A stretch of 53,705 nt of DNA from a virus. The stretch covers positions 1-53,705 of the IMG/VR virus record IMGVR_UViG_3300032116_014300; one strand, 5' to 3'. Positions 4,648 through 33,337 of this stretch are shown here, piece by piece. A program made the translations under genes and the position numbers. The notes beneath the pieces were generated by a model, which was not told the DNA's origin, did no database searches, and was given only the letters and a program-made list of their open reading frames with translations. Position 1 is the first letter of the stretch. Every line of letters begins with the position of its first letter.

Positions 4648-4743
4648 TTATTCTTCTTCATTTCGTAAAAAACGATATGCGAGGTACGTTCCCCCGCACG
4701 CCGTTAATGCAATCACACCGAACCAGAGAAACGCACCAATCAT
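4648..4743 (-). CDS. 31-aa membrane or lipoprotein-like peptide
   Basis: Starts MIGAFLWFGVIALTACGG, a hydrophobic segment with LTAC resembling a lipobox, and ends in an acidic tail RNEEE. Its ATG overlaps the stop of the PEP-CTERM gene as ATGA, so it is translationally coupled to it. It may be a tiny lipoprotein or a single-span membrane peptide working with the PEP-CTERM protein; this is inference from context. Confidence 0.5.
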   Translation of the reverse strand: MIGAFLWFGVIALTACGGTYLAYRFLRNEEE

Positions 4744-5591
4744 GTGAGTTTCTTTCTCCGTCCAACCATTCCCAATCCAACCAATCCCACGATCATCATA
4801 AGATAGGTGGATGGTTCTGGAACGGTCGTTGATGGAACGCCGCGATCAAAGTTGGTGTTAAGGACTTCGGTACCACCACTGGATACCTTTACGTTATCGA
4901 CGAATCCCTTGTACGCATAGGGCCATTGACTGCCCAATCCCACCCCGACACCCATCACCTGTTTGTCACCATAACACGAGACGATTTGACTAATGGTCAG
5001 TGCTTGAACCCCACCACCCCACACCGGAAGTTCGTTGGTGGAGCAGGGATTGGCACTTAAACTATATCCTTCTGCGTTACGATACCAGAAATTTCCATTA
5101 ATCATTTCAGAAGTTTGCCAACTATCGACGTAACTGAGATCGTTGTTAATAGGACGGTTGAAATAATTTTCCCATACAATTTCCGTATTATCGTCCAAGA
5201 ACACCCGAAACGCAGGTGACTTGTACTTCCAATCATAGAGCTGAATGCCGTCCTTGGTTACGTCGGCATCCCAATTCGGATTAGAACTACGGAACCAATC
5301 AAAACTCAAACTGGTTAGGTTGGATAATGCTCCCCAATTCGTATCTGCATACCGATAAGCAAATACCCAATCTTCCATCTTACCTGTCGTATGCATTTGA
5401 AGTGAACCAAATCCTACATCACCAAATCCATACCGTGGCTTAGCACCTGTAACGGTGGCATTGCCGTTACCTTGGATTTCGGTGTACCATCCAAGGTCTT
5501 TCTGTGCCAGATTGTTCTGTGATACGACTTGTGCGGCTGCGTTTGGAGCAAACAACAGAAGTCCGAGTACAATCATCATAATCTTTTTCAT
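4740..5591 (-). CDS. PEP-CTERM domain exported protein (283 aa)
   Basis: A secreted protein with a textbook PEP-CTERM tail. The N-terminus MKKIMMIVLGLLLFAPNAAAQ is a signal peptide. The C-terminus has VPEPSTYLMM, a membrane segment rich in Gly/Val, and a terminal basic cluster GRRKK. In bacteria this signal is recognised by exosortase for sorting to the cell surface or extracellular matrix. The body is rich in Trp, Asn and aromatics with two Cys, like a beta-sandwich surface protein, but no named domain is recognised. TAGGAGAA lies before the ATG at 5591. A longer frame to 5684 is not preferred because the signal peptide would become internal. Confidence 0.85.
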   Translation of the reverse strand: MKKIMMIVLGLLLFAPNAAAQVVSQNNLAQKDLGWYTEIQGNGNATVTGAKPRYGFGDVGFGSLQMHTTGKMEDWVFAYRYADTNWGALSNLTSLSFDWFRSSNPNWDADVTKDGIQLYDWKYKSPAFRVFLDDNTEIVWENYFNRPINNDLSYVDSWQTSEMINGNFWYRNAEGYSLSANPCSTNELPVWGGGVQALTISQIVSCYGDKQVMGVGVGLGSQWPYAYKGFVDNVKVSSGGTEVLNTNFDRGVPSTTVPEPSTYLMMIVGLVGLGMVGRRKKLT

Positions 5592-5599
5592 AAATTCTC

Positions 5600-6106
5600 C
5601 TAATCCCAAAGTCCTTCGTAATATTTGCCGAATAGACGAAACCCATTGGTAATACGTTCTTGATACTTGGTGCGACCTTCCCAATCACATTCCCCTTCGG
5701 TTTTCCATTTAAATTGATATGCTTCCAATCCATCGACAACCTTTTCTGGCGTCACTGGATCATTCCAATCAATTTCTGGTTTGGTCTTCCAGAACTGTTC
5801 TTCCCAATCGGTGAGCTTACTTTCAAATGCGAAAATCATCTCATCTAATACATACTCCCACCGTTTGAAATGATTCTCATCTACGTCATATTCACCGACC
5901 AACTGCTCCGTACGAAGTTCTTCGGGAACATCTTCCATATCAACGTTGGGAGCACCATGTTGGGTTTCCTTCAACTGCTTTAACATCGGAGTGATAATGT
6001 GGGCAAGAGTATTATCCATACTCCACGTATCCCACGGATCAATCTGGATTTTAACTTTCCGTTCACGATCCGACTTCTTTGGATACTTCCCGATAAAGAC
6101 TTTCAT
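5600..6106 (-). CDS. Conserved phage hypothetical protein (168 aa)
   Basis: A soluble acidic protein with blocks DPWDTWSMDNTLAHII, KETQHGAPNVDMEDVPEEL and RWEYVLDEMIFAFES, which I recognise as a conserved protein of many large phages with no assigned function. It ends 8 bases before the PEP-CTERM start and overlaps the SemiSWEET-like gene at its own start by ATGA, so it is part of the same operon. Confidence 0.7.
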   Translation of the reverse strand: MKVFIGKYPKKSDRERKVKIQIDPWDTWSMDNTLAHIITPMLKQLKETQHGAPNVDMEDVPEELRTEQLVGEYDVDENHFKRWEYVLDEMIFAFESKLTDWEEQFWKTKPEIDWNDPVTPEKVVDGLEAYQFKWKTEGECDWEGRTKYQERITNGFRLFGKYYEGLWD

Positions 6107-9732: not shown

Positions 9733-9803
9733 TAGGCCCAGGTGGTACTGCCCCACCGACTCTTGATCCAAAGTCAAGCGTATTACTATTATACTATGGG
9801 CCA
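9733..9803 (-). tRNA. tRNA-Gln(TTG) with odd T loop
   Basis: D stem GTAT/ATAC, anticodon arm CTTGA-CTTTGGA-TCAAG, T stem GGTGG/CCACC, acceptor TGGCCCA/TGGGCCT with a T-T first pair. The T loop reads GGCAGTA and lacks the TTC present in nearly all tRNAs. Confidence 0.75.
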
Positions 9804-25580: not shown

Positions 25581-25595
25581 TGTATGAGGATGCAC

Positions 25596-26066
25596 ATGAA
25601 CGAATGTGATCAATTAGAAAAAGAAATAAACAAGTTAAAGTATGAATTATCAGTGGTAATTCCCAACGATATACAAACATCTATTCAACTGGGAGACTTA
25701 TCAGAGAATTCAGAGTTTTGCGAAGTACTGTCTAGGCAATATGTTGCAAATATTAGGTTATCTCAACTTACGCAACGATTGAGTGTTTGCAAAGAATTTA
25801 CGGCACATGCAATTATACCTGATGTAGTAAACATCGGATCGTTGGTGCGTGTTAGTTGTAAAGAAACCAAAAAGAAAAATGTGTTTAAATTGATAATATC
25901 GGAATTGTCCGACGTACAGTCTGATAAGTTTAGTGAAATCACGTTGCAGTCGCCATTAGGTAAAGCCTTAAAAGGTAGAAAAGTAAAAGATGAAGTATTT
26001 GTGTTTCTGCCTACGGGAAAAGTAACTTATAAAATCTTGGATATATTAACTATGGATGATTTATAA
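25596..26066 (+). CDS. GreA-like transcript elongation factor (156 aa)
   Basis: A phage homologue of bacterial GreA/GreB, which enter the RNA polymerase secondary channel and stimulate RNA cleavage in backtracked complexes. The N-terminal coiled-coil hairpin carries LGDLSENSEF (about 32-41), with the catalytic Asp34 and Glu37 retained. The C-terminal FKBP-like domain shows LQSPLGKALKGRKVKDEV and the P-x-G-x-x-x-Y-x-I ending. Its length matches bacterial GreA (about 158). The start at 25596 follows GAGG by 6 bases; ATGs at 25584 and 25590 are in frame. It lies just before the tmRNA. Confidence 0.82.
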   Translation: MNECDQLEKEINKLKYELSVVIPNDIQTSIQLGDLSENSEFCEVLSRQYVANIRLSQLTQRLSVCKEFTAHAIIPDVVNIGSLVRVSCKETKKKNVFKLIISELSDVQSDKFSEITLQSPLGKALKGRKVKDEVFVFLPTGKVTYKILDILTMDDL

Positions 26067-26127: not shown

Positions 26128-26346
26128 ATGTACAAGCAGTCAACAAATAAACAGTATATGTTAGTAGATTTAGGACCGTCCACGATAATAATGTTGGCAG
26201 AGTTAATTCTCATAACATTAAAGTTGATGAATCAAATTAGTTACTCATGGACGTTAGTATTATCTCCTATTATACTGGTTATTCTAGGTGCCTCTATCAT
26301 TTTGTTTTTTACATTAATAAAAGTTATTAAAGATAATTTGTTTTAG
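26128..26346 (+). CDS. Two-span membrane protein (72 aa)
   Basis: Two hydrophobic segments (about 19-36 and 42-66) with the second ending in KVIKDNLF. GAGGAT lies before the ATG. The last base of its TAG stop (26346) is the first base of the tmRNA gene, so the two share one transcript. Function unknown. Confidence 0.55.
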   Translation: MYKQSTNKQYMLVDLGPSTIIMLAELILITLKLMNQISYSWTLVLSPIILVILGASIILFFTLIKVIKDNLF

Positions 26347-26683
26347 GGCGTGTCATGGTTTCGACGGGGTGTGGGTGATTAAGTTTTGTACCCAGTTTGG
26401 TAAAACTGGTAAAACAGACCAAATAAATCTAACTGGCAACTATAATTTAGCCCTCGCTGCTTAATTGCAGCCTGATGACTTAATCTGACCGACCACATAG
26501 GGTTAATTCATTCATTAATGTGGTCTAGCCTTGCTAGGAACCGTATTCAAGGTGATTTTTCGGTTCTATATCTACTCAAGTTTGTTCCTCAACGACAAGT
26601 AGATGAAAATTTATAAGGAACTACGTACATAAACCCTTAATAGGAAGCAAGACCGGACGCGGGTTCGACTCCCGCCACGTCCA
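26346..26683 (+). ncRNA. ssrA: tmRNA (transfer-messenger RNA)
   Basis: A one-piece tmRNA of 338 nt. The tRNA-like ends pair as GGGCGTG/CACGTCC with discriminator A, the 5' side shows GGTTTCGACGGGG, and the 3' side has a T arm GCGGG-TTCGACT-CCCGC; CCA is not encoded. The tag-coding frame near 26435-26464 ends AAC-TAT-AAT-TTA-GCC-CTC-GCT-GCT-TAA, giving a tag close to GNYNLALAA. tmRNA with SmpB frees stalled ribosomes and marks the unfinished protein for proteolysis. SmpB is not in this window and would come from the host or elsewhere in the phage. Confidence 0.9.
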
Positions 26684-26720
26684 TTCAACGGTTGGTGTTT
26701 ACATTCTATCGGAGTGAGCA

Positions 26721-28909: not shown

Positions 28910-28982
28910 CTTAGGGACGCCTTCGGGGTTCCTATCCCGTTATCCAATAGTGGAAACGGAAACTTATAAAAAGGAGAAGTAT

Positions 28983-29483
28983 ATGACAAAGTGGACAGTA
29001 CAGCGAGTACCAAAATCGGTTATTGAGAAGGAAATTGAGTTCAATCGTGATAATTTGTTAAACACGTTTGACAGGTTTTTTGATGAGGCTTTCCGGGGAC
29101 AATTCCCAGATGTATACAAAAATTTTGGAATTGAACCATTCAGTAAGGCAGCATATCCAAAGGTTAACGTGTTGTCGTTTGACGATAAAGTTGAAATTGA
29201 AGCAGAAATTGCAGGATATAACAAGGAGGACATCTCAATTCAGATTGAGGACGATGTTCTAAGTATTGTTGGAAAGACTGCACAGCAGGGTGAGCAAACT
29301 GATAAATCTGTTTATCTACTTCGTGAATTGAAGCGTAGCTCGTTCAGTCGTTCATTTAGACTCACTGATCAGCTGGATCCAGATAAGGTCGAAGCAGCTT
29401 TCAACAATGGGTTACTTCATATTACTATTCCACGTAAAGTTCAAACTAAGGAGAACAAAGCGAAGACTGTGGTAATCAAGTAA
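28983..29483 (+). CDS. Hsp20/alpha-crystallin small heat shock protein (166 aa)
   Basis: The alpha-crystallin domain (about residues 60-160) includes KVEIEAEIAGYNKEDISIQI, LLRELKRSSFSRSFRL and the end NNGLLHITIPRK. These proteins hold unfolded proteins in an ATP-independent way. Related genes occur in cyanophages and other T4-like phages. AAAGGAGA precedes the ATG at 28983; the frame opens upstream at 28950. It may protect virion or host proteins during infection. Confidence 0.9.
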   Translation: MTKWTVQRVPKSVIEKEIEFNRDNLLNTFDRFFDEAFRGQFPDVYKNFGIEPFSKAAYPKVNVLSFDDKVEIEAEIAGYNKEDISIQIEDDVLSIVGKTAQQGEQTDKSVYLLRELKRSSFSRSFRLTDQLDPDKVEAAFNNGLLHITIPRKVQTKENKAKTVVIK

Positions 29484-29678: not shown

Positions 29679-30719
29679 ATGAATACACGAAAATCGTTAA
29701 TAACCATCACATCACTTACCGCAACATTTGTCGCACTCTGTGCCGCAATATTTTCCGTCACGGGTATTGCCAAATTGTTCGCAGGTGCTGCATTGAGTGC
29801 GGGTGTAATGGCAGCAGCATTGGAACTGGGAAAGATTGTCAGTATTTCGTTCTTATATCAATACTGGAAAGAAATCCCAAAAACACTTAAATACTATTTG
29901 TCGGTTGCTGCGGTAATATTAATGGTTATTACGTCTGCTGGTATCTACGGATACCTTTCATCTGCCTATGCAAAGGTGTCTGCAACTCCATTAGCGTTGA
30001 ATGCAGACATCCAAACAGTTCAAGGAAGAGTGGGTAGTCTAGAACAAGATATTAAACGTAAAGAAGATCGTCTTAATCAATTAATAACATTACGATCTCA
30101 ACAAGAAACCCGTTTGGATAATATGGTATCTAAGTCCACAACAGGAAACAGTTCGACTATTCGTACGGCACAAAACGCATTAAATCAAGCAGACAGAAAT
30201 GTTACGGCATTACAAAAAGAAATCTCTAACCTTTCAGCACAGCGAGATAGCCTCAATGGAATCAGTATTAGCAAACGTGTGGAAATTGAAACAAACGGTG
30301 ATGTTGGCACTTTCATCTATATTGCAAAAGTACTGGGCACTGACCTTGATACGGTGGTCAAATGGTTCACGCTCGTCATTGTATTAGTTTTTGATCCGTT
30401 AGCGGTAGCATTAGTAATTGCAGTTAATTTTCTCATAAAAAATGCAACCCTCGTGTCTAGTAAACCTTCATATAAAATACAAAATGATAATACCGAAGTG
30501 TTTACCGTAGAAGATACCGAGCCATATGAAATGTATTATAAAGAAAATAATATAGATGAAAATGTTATAGAAATGGAAAGTTTACATCTAGCCCAAGAGG
30601 CAGCAGATCCTCAATATTATGCTAGAGGTGATTTTGACTGGTCTAATGAACTTATGTGGAAATACAACCCAAAAGCAATAGAATATTATAACAGAGAAAT
30701 TCTTCCAAGAAAACAGTAA
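29679..30719 (+). CDS. Phage membrane protein with central coiled coil (346 aa)
   Basis: Three N-terminal membrane segments (about 8-30, 33-60 and 72-97), a long coiled coil (about 107-195, with a Gly-Asn-Ser-rich break), one more span (about 226-252), and an acidic C-terminal tail. I recognise this layout as a widespread membrane/coil protein of large marine-type phages, function unknown. It may organise membrane-associated replication or block superinfection. The leader carries a terminator-like hairpin. Confidence 0.6.
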   Translation: MNTRKSLITITSLTATFVALCAAIFSVTGIAKLFAGAALSAGVMAAALELGKIVSISFLYQYWKEIPKTLKYYLSVAAVILMVITSAGIYGYLSSAYAKVSATPLALNADIQTVQGRVGSLEQDIKRKEDRLNQLITLRSQQETRLDNMVSKSTTGNSSTIRTAQNALNQADRNVTALQKEISNLSAQRDSLNGISISKRVEIETNGDVGTFIYIAKVLGTDLDTVVKWFTLVIVLVFDPLAVALVIAVNFLIKNATLVSSKPSYKIQNDNTEVFTVEDTEPYEMYYKENNIDENVIEMESLHLAQEAADPQYYARGDFDWSNELMWKYNPKAIEYYNREILPRKQ

Positions 30720-30780: not shown

Positions 30781-31680
30781 ATGCCACATAATGTTGGTTA
30801 TTGTTGTATTAACATGACGTTGAACAAACAAAAAATTACTACTGGGCGTGGTATGATTCAACGTACCTTCAAAGAAAAGGGGTTGAACTATGCGTCTGAA
30901 CTTGCCCTTGCTAATGCACGTGATCTTGTAAAAATCTTACAATGGAATGCCGATAATAACATCACGGTATTCCGAATGGGGTCGGGTATTTTCCCGTGGG
31001 GTACGGAGTATGATCTGTACGACCTTCCGCACATCAACGAAATTGCACGAACACTGGCAAATGCCGGTATTCTTGCCACATCCACAAAGCAACGTGTCAC
31101 GGCACACCCTGATCACTTTGTCAAATTGGGATCGGAAAAGGAATCCGTTGTACTTAATTCTATCAAAGATTTAGAACTACATTCTAAAGTTTTTGATATG
31201 ATGGGACTGAGCAATACACCATACAACGCACTCAATATCCATGTCGGTATGAATTTTTCTCAAGACACGGCGTACCGATGGATTGCAAATTATCATAGAC
31301 TGTCTAAAAACTGTCAATCACGGTTGGTAGTAGAAAATGACGACAAAGAGAAGGCATTTTCTGTACGCCAACTCTATCATTATTTACACAACGTAATTAA
31401 TATTCCAATTACATTTGATTATTTCCATCATCAATTTCATCCTGATGGATGGGATTCAAAAGATGCTGCTAAAATAGCAGCAGGTACATGGCCAGAAGGA
31501 ATTAAACCACTTTTCCATTACAGCGAGAGTAAAAATATCAATGAGAACGTATCGGGAAATCCTCGGGCACATGCTGATTATGTGTTTAATGTACTTGATG
31601 ATTACGGTCTTGACATAGACGTTGATCTAGAAGCAAAAGCAAAAGAACTTGCCCTCTTCAAATACAGGAGTTTAACGTGA
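30781..31680 (+). CDS. uvsE: UV-damage endonuclease UvsE/UvdE-like (299 aa)
   Basis: A repair endonuclease that nicks DNA 5' of UV photoproducts. The TIM-barrel motifs of the family are in order: VGYCCINMTL (about 5-14), LNIHVGMNF (about 144-152), RLVVENDD (about 180-187), FDYFHHQFHP (about 215-224) and HYSESK (about 249-254). Its length matches the UvsE family (about 300). A sigma70-type promoter lies upstream. It overlaps the glycosyltransferase gene by 1 base. Confidence 0.9.
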   Translation: MPHNVGYCCINMTLNKQKITTGRGMIQRTFKEKGLNYASELALANARDLVKILQWNADNNITVFRMGSGIFPWGTEYDLYDLPHINEIARTLANAGILATSTKQRVTAHPDHFVKLGSEKESVVLNSIKDLELHSKVFDMMGLSNTPYNALNIHVGMNFSQDTAYRWIANYHRLSKNCQSRLVVENDDKEKAFSVRQLYHYLHNVINIPITFDYFHHQFHPDGWDSKDAAKIAAGTWPEGIKPLFHYSESKNINENVSGNPRAHADYVFNVLDDYGLDIDVDLEAKAKELALFKYRSLT

Positions 31681-32308: not shown

Positions 32309-33337
32309 ATGAGAGGACAAGCATTAACATATGACGATATTACACTCATACCACGATATAGTGAAATTGAAAGCCGTCAAAAAATTGACCTTACAACTCA
32401 ATTAACAACTAATTATAGTATTGGGGTTCCGTTGATTGCTTCTCCAATGGATACTGTGTGTGATTCCGAAATGGCTATTGCTATGGCAGAATTGGGTGGC
32501 GTGGGATGTATTCATCGTTTCAATACTATTACGGAACAGATGAATGAAGTTATGTTAGTGACGAAAAAACTACATACTTTTTTTCTGATGCAATCCCAAG
32601 TAATTCCCGTTATGGCGGCAATCGGAGCAAATGGTGATTATTTAGAACGGGCACACGCCCTTGTTTCTGCTGGAGCAAACGTTATATTAATTGACGTAGC
32701 ACACGGACATCACAAATTTGTTAAAGAAGCAATCAACACGTTAAAATATCAGTTACCGTCACACGTAGATATTATTGCTGGAAATGTTGCAACTGCCCAC
32801 GCCGCAGCAGATCTTGTTGAGTGGGGGGCAGACGCAATTCGGGTGGGGATTGGTGGAGGATCGCTGTGTACCACTCGGATCAAAACAGGGTTTGGTGTCC
32901 CAAATGTTATGTCATTAGAACGTTGCGCCAGTGAGGTTACGGTTCCAATCATTGCGTGTGGTGGTATTCGGAACAGTGGAGACATTGCAAAGGCATTAGC
33001 AGTTGGCGCAAGTTCGGTTATTCTGGGATCACTTCTTGCAGGAACCAAAGAAGCGCCTGGAGCAATCATTGAGAAGTCAAATGGGTTATATAAGAGATAT
33101 CGTGGGGCTGCTTCATTGGAGACGAAGACGGTTCACGGTCAAGCTACTCGAAATGTGGAAGGCGAGTCTACTATCGTTCCGTTCAAGGGTAGCGTGAAAT
33201 TCGTTGTGGAGGGGTTGTTGGATGGCTTGCGGTCTGCATTATCCTATGCCGGAGCAAACAATCTAACGGAGTTCAATCCAGACTATGTACAAGTCACAAA
33301 CGCCGGAATGAACGAGGCCCGTCCCCACCTTCTGTGA
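32309..33337 (+). CDS. IMP dehydrogenase/GMP reductase-family enzyme (342 aa)
   Basis: A TIM-barrel purine nucleotide oxidoreductase. LTYDDITLIPRYSEI and IASPMDTVCDSEMA are the family's N-terminal blocks. GGGSLCTTR (about 183-191) carries the catalytic Cys187, and ACGGIRNSGDIAKALAVGA the phosphate-binding region. There is no CBS-domain insert, so the protein is short (342 versus about 490 for full IMPDH), as in GMP reductases. RYRGAASLE resembles the IMPDH active-site loop. It would adjust IMP/XMP/GMP pools. It begins 2 bases after the glycosyltransferase stop. Confidence 0.85.
   Translation: MRGQALTYDDITLIPRYSEIESRQKIDLTTQLTTNYSIGVPLIASPMDTVCDSEMAIAMAELGGVGCIHRFNTITEQMNEVMLVTKKLHTFFLMQSQVIPVMAAIGANGDYLERAHALVSAGANVILIDVAHGHHKFVKEAINTLKYQLPSHVDIIAGNVATAHAAADLVEWGADAIRVGIGGGSLCTTRIKTGFGVPNVMSLERCASEVTVPIIACGGIRNSGDIAKALAVGASSVILGSLLAGTKEAPGAIIEKSNGLYKRYRGAASLETKTVHGQATRNVEGESTIVPFKGSVKFVVEGLLDGLRSALSYAGANNLTEFNPDYVQVTNAGMNEARPHLL

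Follow-up and report, generated by a model that had tools for sequence, protein, structure and literature searches.

The phage represented by the 53.7-kb viral record analysed here over its whole length (the window) carries a gene that most likely encodes a functional one-piece tmRNA of the known ssrA kind, matured by the host and used in trans-translation during infection. ARAGORN placed the gene exactly at 26346-26683 (+) with the tag GNYNLALAA*, and a full-length match to Rfam RF00023 was found at 26346-26686 (128 bits, E 9e-50; gathering score 47). These two results agree with the complete tmRNA proposed in the initial annotation. The gene and its parts are as follows.

26346-26683 (+): one-piece tmRNA (ssrA) with no encoded CCA (ARAGORN, Rfam RF00023, covariation in relatives)
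26346-26352 (+): 5' strand of the acceptor stem, GGGCGTG, which holds G3 of G3.U70 and pairs with CACGTCC at 26676-26682
26393-26422 (+): pseudoknot PK1 with stems CAGT/ACTG and TTGG/CCAA, from the alignment of relatives
26435-26464 (+): tag reading frame, GGC AAC TAT AAT TTA GCC CTC GCT GCT TAA (GNYNLALAA*)
26659-26683 (+): T-arm GCGGG-TTCGACT-CCCGC, acceptor 3' strand and discriminator A

The 338-nt RNA combines its RF00023 score with an acceptor stem containing the G3.U70 pair and with PK1 upstream of the tag. The tag frame has a proper upstream context, a hydrophobic -xLAA degron end and a stop codon. The A at -4 of the resume codon is position 26431, and an A at this place is also found in E. 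coli tmRNA. The tag finishes in LALAA, as known ClpXP degrons do. At the 3' end the sequence is CACGTCC-A-TTC, with discriminator A26683 followed by TTC and no CCA, so CCA must be added post-transcriptionally. The tRNAs of this phage likewise end without an encoded CCA. ARAGORN predicted 24 tRNAs in the window, and one more at 9733-9803 (-), which it missed, was detected by Rfam (49.4 bits).

Three neighbouring genes are relevant to the tmRNA.

25584-26066 (+): GreA/GreB-like protein, 160 aa (Pfam PF01272, PF03449)
26128-26346 (+): 72-aa ORF, hydrophobic by eye, with a Shine-Dalgarno-like site (PHROG 1374, unknown function, 1e-7)
29679-30719 (+): 346-aa conserved ORF of unknown function, which in relatives lies downstream of the tmRNA and serves as a syntenic marker

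The tmRNA had been described as following a GreA-like gene. Matches to GreA_GreB (8e-15) and GreA_GreB_N (2e-7) support the identity of that gene, but the two are not in direct succession, as the 72-aa ORF sits between them. The first G of the tmRNA, G26346, is indeed shared with an upstream stop codon, namely the TAG (26344-26346) of the 72-aa ORF and not that of the GreA-like gene. No consistent promoter was found upstream of the tmRNA, where the sequence varies among relatives. A -35/-10-like pair at 26308-26337, just 5' of the tmRNA, was considered and rejected since it is not consistently kept in relatives. Promoter-like sites in the promoter/terminator scan were near the chance level (10 vs. 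7.4 expected). The nearest named relatives of the structural genes in the window are just 37-40% identical, and no DNA similarity was found between the window and 50,697 phage records. The window also contains genes for an IMP dehydrogenase/GMP reductase (32309-33337; 4.5e-104), a UvdE UV endonuclease (30781-31680; 1.6e-52) and an Hsp20 protein (28950-29483; 1e-21).

Two sets of relatives were assembled. The first comprised 11 viral contigs, retrieved because their DNA can encode this tag; ARAGORN called a tmRNA in nearly all of them. Because it had been picked by the tag itself, this set was unable to show tag conservation and was replaced by a second set, gathered through the neighbouring protein (29679-30719) located 3 kb downstream of the tmRNA. 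A tmRNA was called in 14 related loci, some of which are near-identical contigs from different samples, and is always at the same place upstream of the marker gene. The loci without a tmRNA call start too near the marker gene, except for L144, which is the most divergent (36% identity). No tmRNA was detected there, the only clear absence among the related loci.

The phage tmRNAs of these relatives diverge by approximately 15-27% in sequence. RNAalifold applied to 12 aligned phage sequences predicted 72 pairs, 22 of them with compensatory changes. Every pair of the acceptor and T stems is retained in the 12 sequences; changes affect both sides of acceptor pairs 5-7 and T-stem pairs 1-3 without any loss of pairing, and G3.U70 is invariant (12/12). 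In PK1, CAGT/ACTG is swapped as a pair for TCGT/ACGA, and TTGG/CCAA is invariant. Together with the RF00023 score, these compensatory changes exclude a chance origin of the match. The A at -4 is present in all compared phage tmRNAs. The tags of the relatives read GNYNLALAA or GNQNLALAA and no others, and the variants differ from the window tag by seven synonymous codons and one amino-acid change. For L138, the frame called by ARAGORN was wrong and was discarded; the conserved frame encodes GNQNLALAA. The covariation and the retention of the tag through synonymous change are strong evidence for RNA function and for selection on the tag. Given the conserved position, the compensatory stems, the invariant G3.U70 and the nearly synonymous tag changes, the tmRNA is very probably functional.

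The tag had been highlighted as unusual and as lacking acidic residues. The reading GNYNLALAA, without acidic residues, is correct, but such tags are not rare, and to call the tag unusual overstates the case. In a survey of Bacteroidota (in the GTDB sense), 148 genomes were drawn from the phylum and 141 of them contained a tmRNA above the cut-off. Of the 69 tags read in the survey, one of them belonging to a huge phage, 33 begin with G and 10 lack acidic residues. In one class, acidic residues are absent from 8 of 19 further tags (e.g., ANYNYALAA, ANNNYALAA, and ANNQLALAA). Both G-starting and xNYNxALAA tags are widespread in Bacteroidota. However, GNYNLALAA ending in TAA was found in no tmRNA of the 84,980 species genomes scanned with a pattern for this peptide followed by TAA, which through codon degeneracy also admits F for L. 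The scan gave only two near variants, both located in tmRNAs and the closest bacterial tags: a Chitinophagaceae genome has GNYNFALAA, and one from Patescibacteria has GNYNFAFAA. Thus, the exact peptide has no bacterial match in these genomes, and the kind of tag is fairly ordinary.

A search for smpB (PF01668) in the window and eight related contigs, all of them fragments and including the 145- and 167-kb ones, gave no match. A complete phage trans-translation system of tmRNA plus SmpB was therefore not found in the searched contig fragments, and the suggestion that the phage takes over ribosome rescue goes too far. ArfB-like RF-1 domains and a CCA-adding enzyme were searched for in five contigs, and none was found. 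With none of these three found, the phage would depend on those of the host, and it appears to use host SmpB. Participation of the phage tmRNA in ribosome rescue, in contrast to a takeover, is well supported by its structure, the A at -4, the conserved G3.U70 and the purifying selection on the tag. In the proposed mechanism, host enzymes would mature the tmRNA and add the CCA tail, host AlaRS would charge it with alanine, and host SmpB would bind it. During infection, the charged RNA would then act on ribosomes that have stalled at broken messages, and the stalled product would receive (A)GNYNLALAA and be destroyed by host ClpXP-type proteases. The benefit to the phage would most likely be that ribosomes and amino acids are kept circulating while messages are degraded. 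We infer expression, charging, tagging and benefit from what can be read in the sequence, i.e., the tmRNA architecture, the alanine identity pair, the resume-codon context, the compensatory evolution, the tag conservation and the lack of smpB in the searched contigs.

It had also been suggested that the phage may redirect tagged proteins. The only hint in this direction comes from a ClpP-like gene in relatives. G001 (145.8 kb) and G002 (166.6 kb), which are the longest relatives, each encode a ClpP-family protein of 192-195 aa.

G002:C1:106509-107024: ClpP-like gene (L244)
G001:C1:8187-8702: ClpP-like gene (L245)

Such a protease could, together with a host unfoldase, form a phage-made degradation chamber that receives the tagged proteins. 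The Ser-His-Asp triad is intact, with S95, H120 and D171 conserved in four phage proteins, and the gene adjoins one that, judged from the translations, reads as a clamp-loader subunit. The best PHROGs for the protein are head maturation proteases, which argues for a different function. However, G001 has a T4-type S77 prohead protease in addition, which makes a head-maturation role less likely there, as the ClpP-like protein would be unneeded for the prohead. Also against a degradation chamber, the protein scores below all NCBIfam ClpP cut-offs (best 88 bits for the G001/G002 ORF vs. cut-offs of at least 228), no ClpX/ClpA-type unfoldase was detected by PF10431 in five contigs, and the ClpP-like gene is not visible in the window itself.

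Homologues of the phage ClpP-like protein are widespread in viral contigs, and some lie close to a tmRNA. A permuted two-piece beta-type tmRNA with an AND-type tag is located on the same strand at most 3 kb upstream in 24 of 80 ClpP loci, including L294, L308, L311, L319, and L325, which apparently belong to T4-like phages. In the more distant ClpP group, a permuted beta-type tmRNA lies within 3 kb upstream of ClpP in 22 of the 40 loci whose upstream sequence spans 2.9 kb or more, a raw count uncorrected for phylogenetic non-independence. In Synechococcus phage BUCT-ZZ01, ClpP and a permuted tmRNA are both present but widely separated.

ON615601.1, 116861-117279 (complement): permuted tmRNA of BUCT-ZZ01 (L340; RF04321, 112 bits), predicted tag ANDETFSMALAA

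Although this co-occurrence favours a phage-made chamber, the linkage may reflect common descent in a single clade, and ClpP occurs without a detectable tmRNA in G228 (160 of 164 kb read), G230 (159 of 179 kb read), G231 and Phosso. The Sinorhizobium jumbo phage AP-J-162 is presumably similar to Phosso, judging by its host and genome size. Both a tmRNA and ClpX have been reported in AP-J-162 (PMC11242549). On balance, we consider it unlikely that tagged proteins are delivered to a phage ClpP-like protease. That several large aquatic phage groups carry a paired tmRNA and ClpP module which, with a host unfoldase, controls both ends of ribosome-rescue proteolysis is likewise rather doubtful, and this pairing is put forward as a hypothesis worth testing and not as a result.

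Alternatively, the phage tmRNA could be a decoy that titrates host SmpB or AlaRS and dampens host trans-translation rather than performing it. Hudson and Williams noted that a tmRNA with nothing but the tRNA-like domain, an example being that of phage DS6A, can act as a tmRNA inhibitor, perhaps through titration of SmpB (PMC4131195). In the window phage, by contrast, the mRNA-like part is intact, with a conserved tag frame, A at -4 and PK1, and the retention of the tag through synonymous changes is more than a pure decoy would need, which makes a decoy very unlikely. Capture of a host ssrA by imprecise excision of an ssrA-integrating prophage, leaving a passenger with no phage function, is conceivable since tmRNA genes are common integration sites and ssrA fragments occur in prophages (PMC9004378), but is extremely improbable given the conserved position across such divergent relatives, the compensatory evolution of the stems and a tmRNA tree in which the phage sequences form one clade (support 1.0) on a long branch away from the sampled bacteria. 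Host-dependent trans-translation with the phage tmRNA is therefore the preferred reading.

The same tree, which sampled Bacteroidota, one Patescibacteria genome and E. coli only, has E. coli nearest to the phage clade by branch length. Host assignment through the tmRNA was attempted and rejected: the best profile matches are from Bacteroidota, several of whose tags start with G, but the phage clade could not be placed in the tree. Shine-Dalgarno sites were found for 23 of 49 phage genes, compared with 4 in shuffles. Shine-Dalgarno use argues against Bacteroidia. Together with the unresolved tree, it leads to no firm choice of host. A possible host clue of another kind is an ORF at 4740-5684 (-) of the window that ends in a C-terminal PEP-CTERM motif (1.9e-7), which certain Gram-negative bacteria use as a sorting signal.

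tmRNA genes have been found in phages before, and the window tmRNA is a new member of that kind. Phages with ssrA listed by Hudson and Williams include Bxz1, Wildcat and phage G (PMC4131195). In Wildcat, the tmRNA is the most highly expressed lytic gene (PMC7474061). The authors of the Melnitz study counted ssrA in 402 phages among 18,146 genomes (PMC9004378), and huge phages carry both tmRNA and SmpB (PMC7162821). In LR756508.1, a distant 484-kb phage record related to the window by baseplate genes, an RF00023 match (72 bits) is located at 92434-92880 (L043), where the tag called by ARAGORN, GRRKPLSW, looks wrong.

Compared with these systems, the window tmRNA resembles those of Mycobacterium phages Bxz1 and Wildcat and Bacillus phage G in being a complete one-piece ssrA (PMC4131195), whereas the window phage belongs to a different group, lacks a DNA match in the 50,697 records and has the tag GNYNLALAA. 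The Melnitz-type marine phages are also large aquatic T4-like phages with a phage tmRNA, for which a similar role has been proposed (PMC9004378), but their tmRNA is permuted and two-piece and that of the window is one-piece. Bacteroidota tmRNAs, with tags such as GEYNYALAA, DNYNYALAA, ANNQLALAA, and GNYNFALAA, are the best profile matches among the sequences compared, and the window RNA differs from them in being shorter and in its long, unplaced branch. The present gene is thus a further one-piece tmRNA with good structural support and a tag shown to be under selection, from an uncultivated phage group without a close relative in phage records. The ClpP-like protease encoded by its two longest relatives is a new lead, and the co-occurrence of tmRNA and such a protease in three phage groups suggests a testable answer to why phages carry tmRNA.
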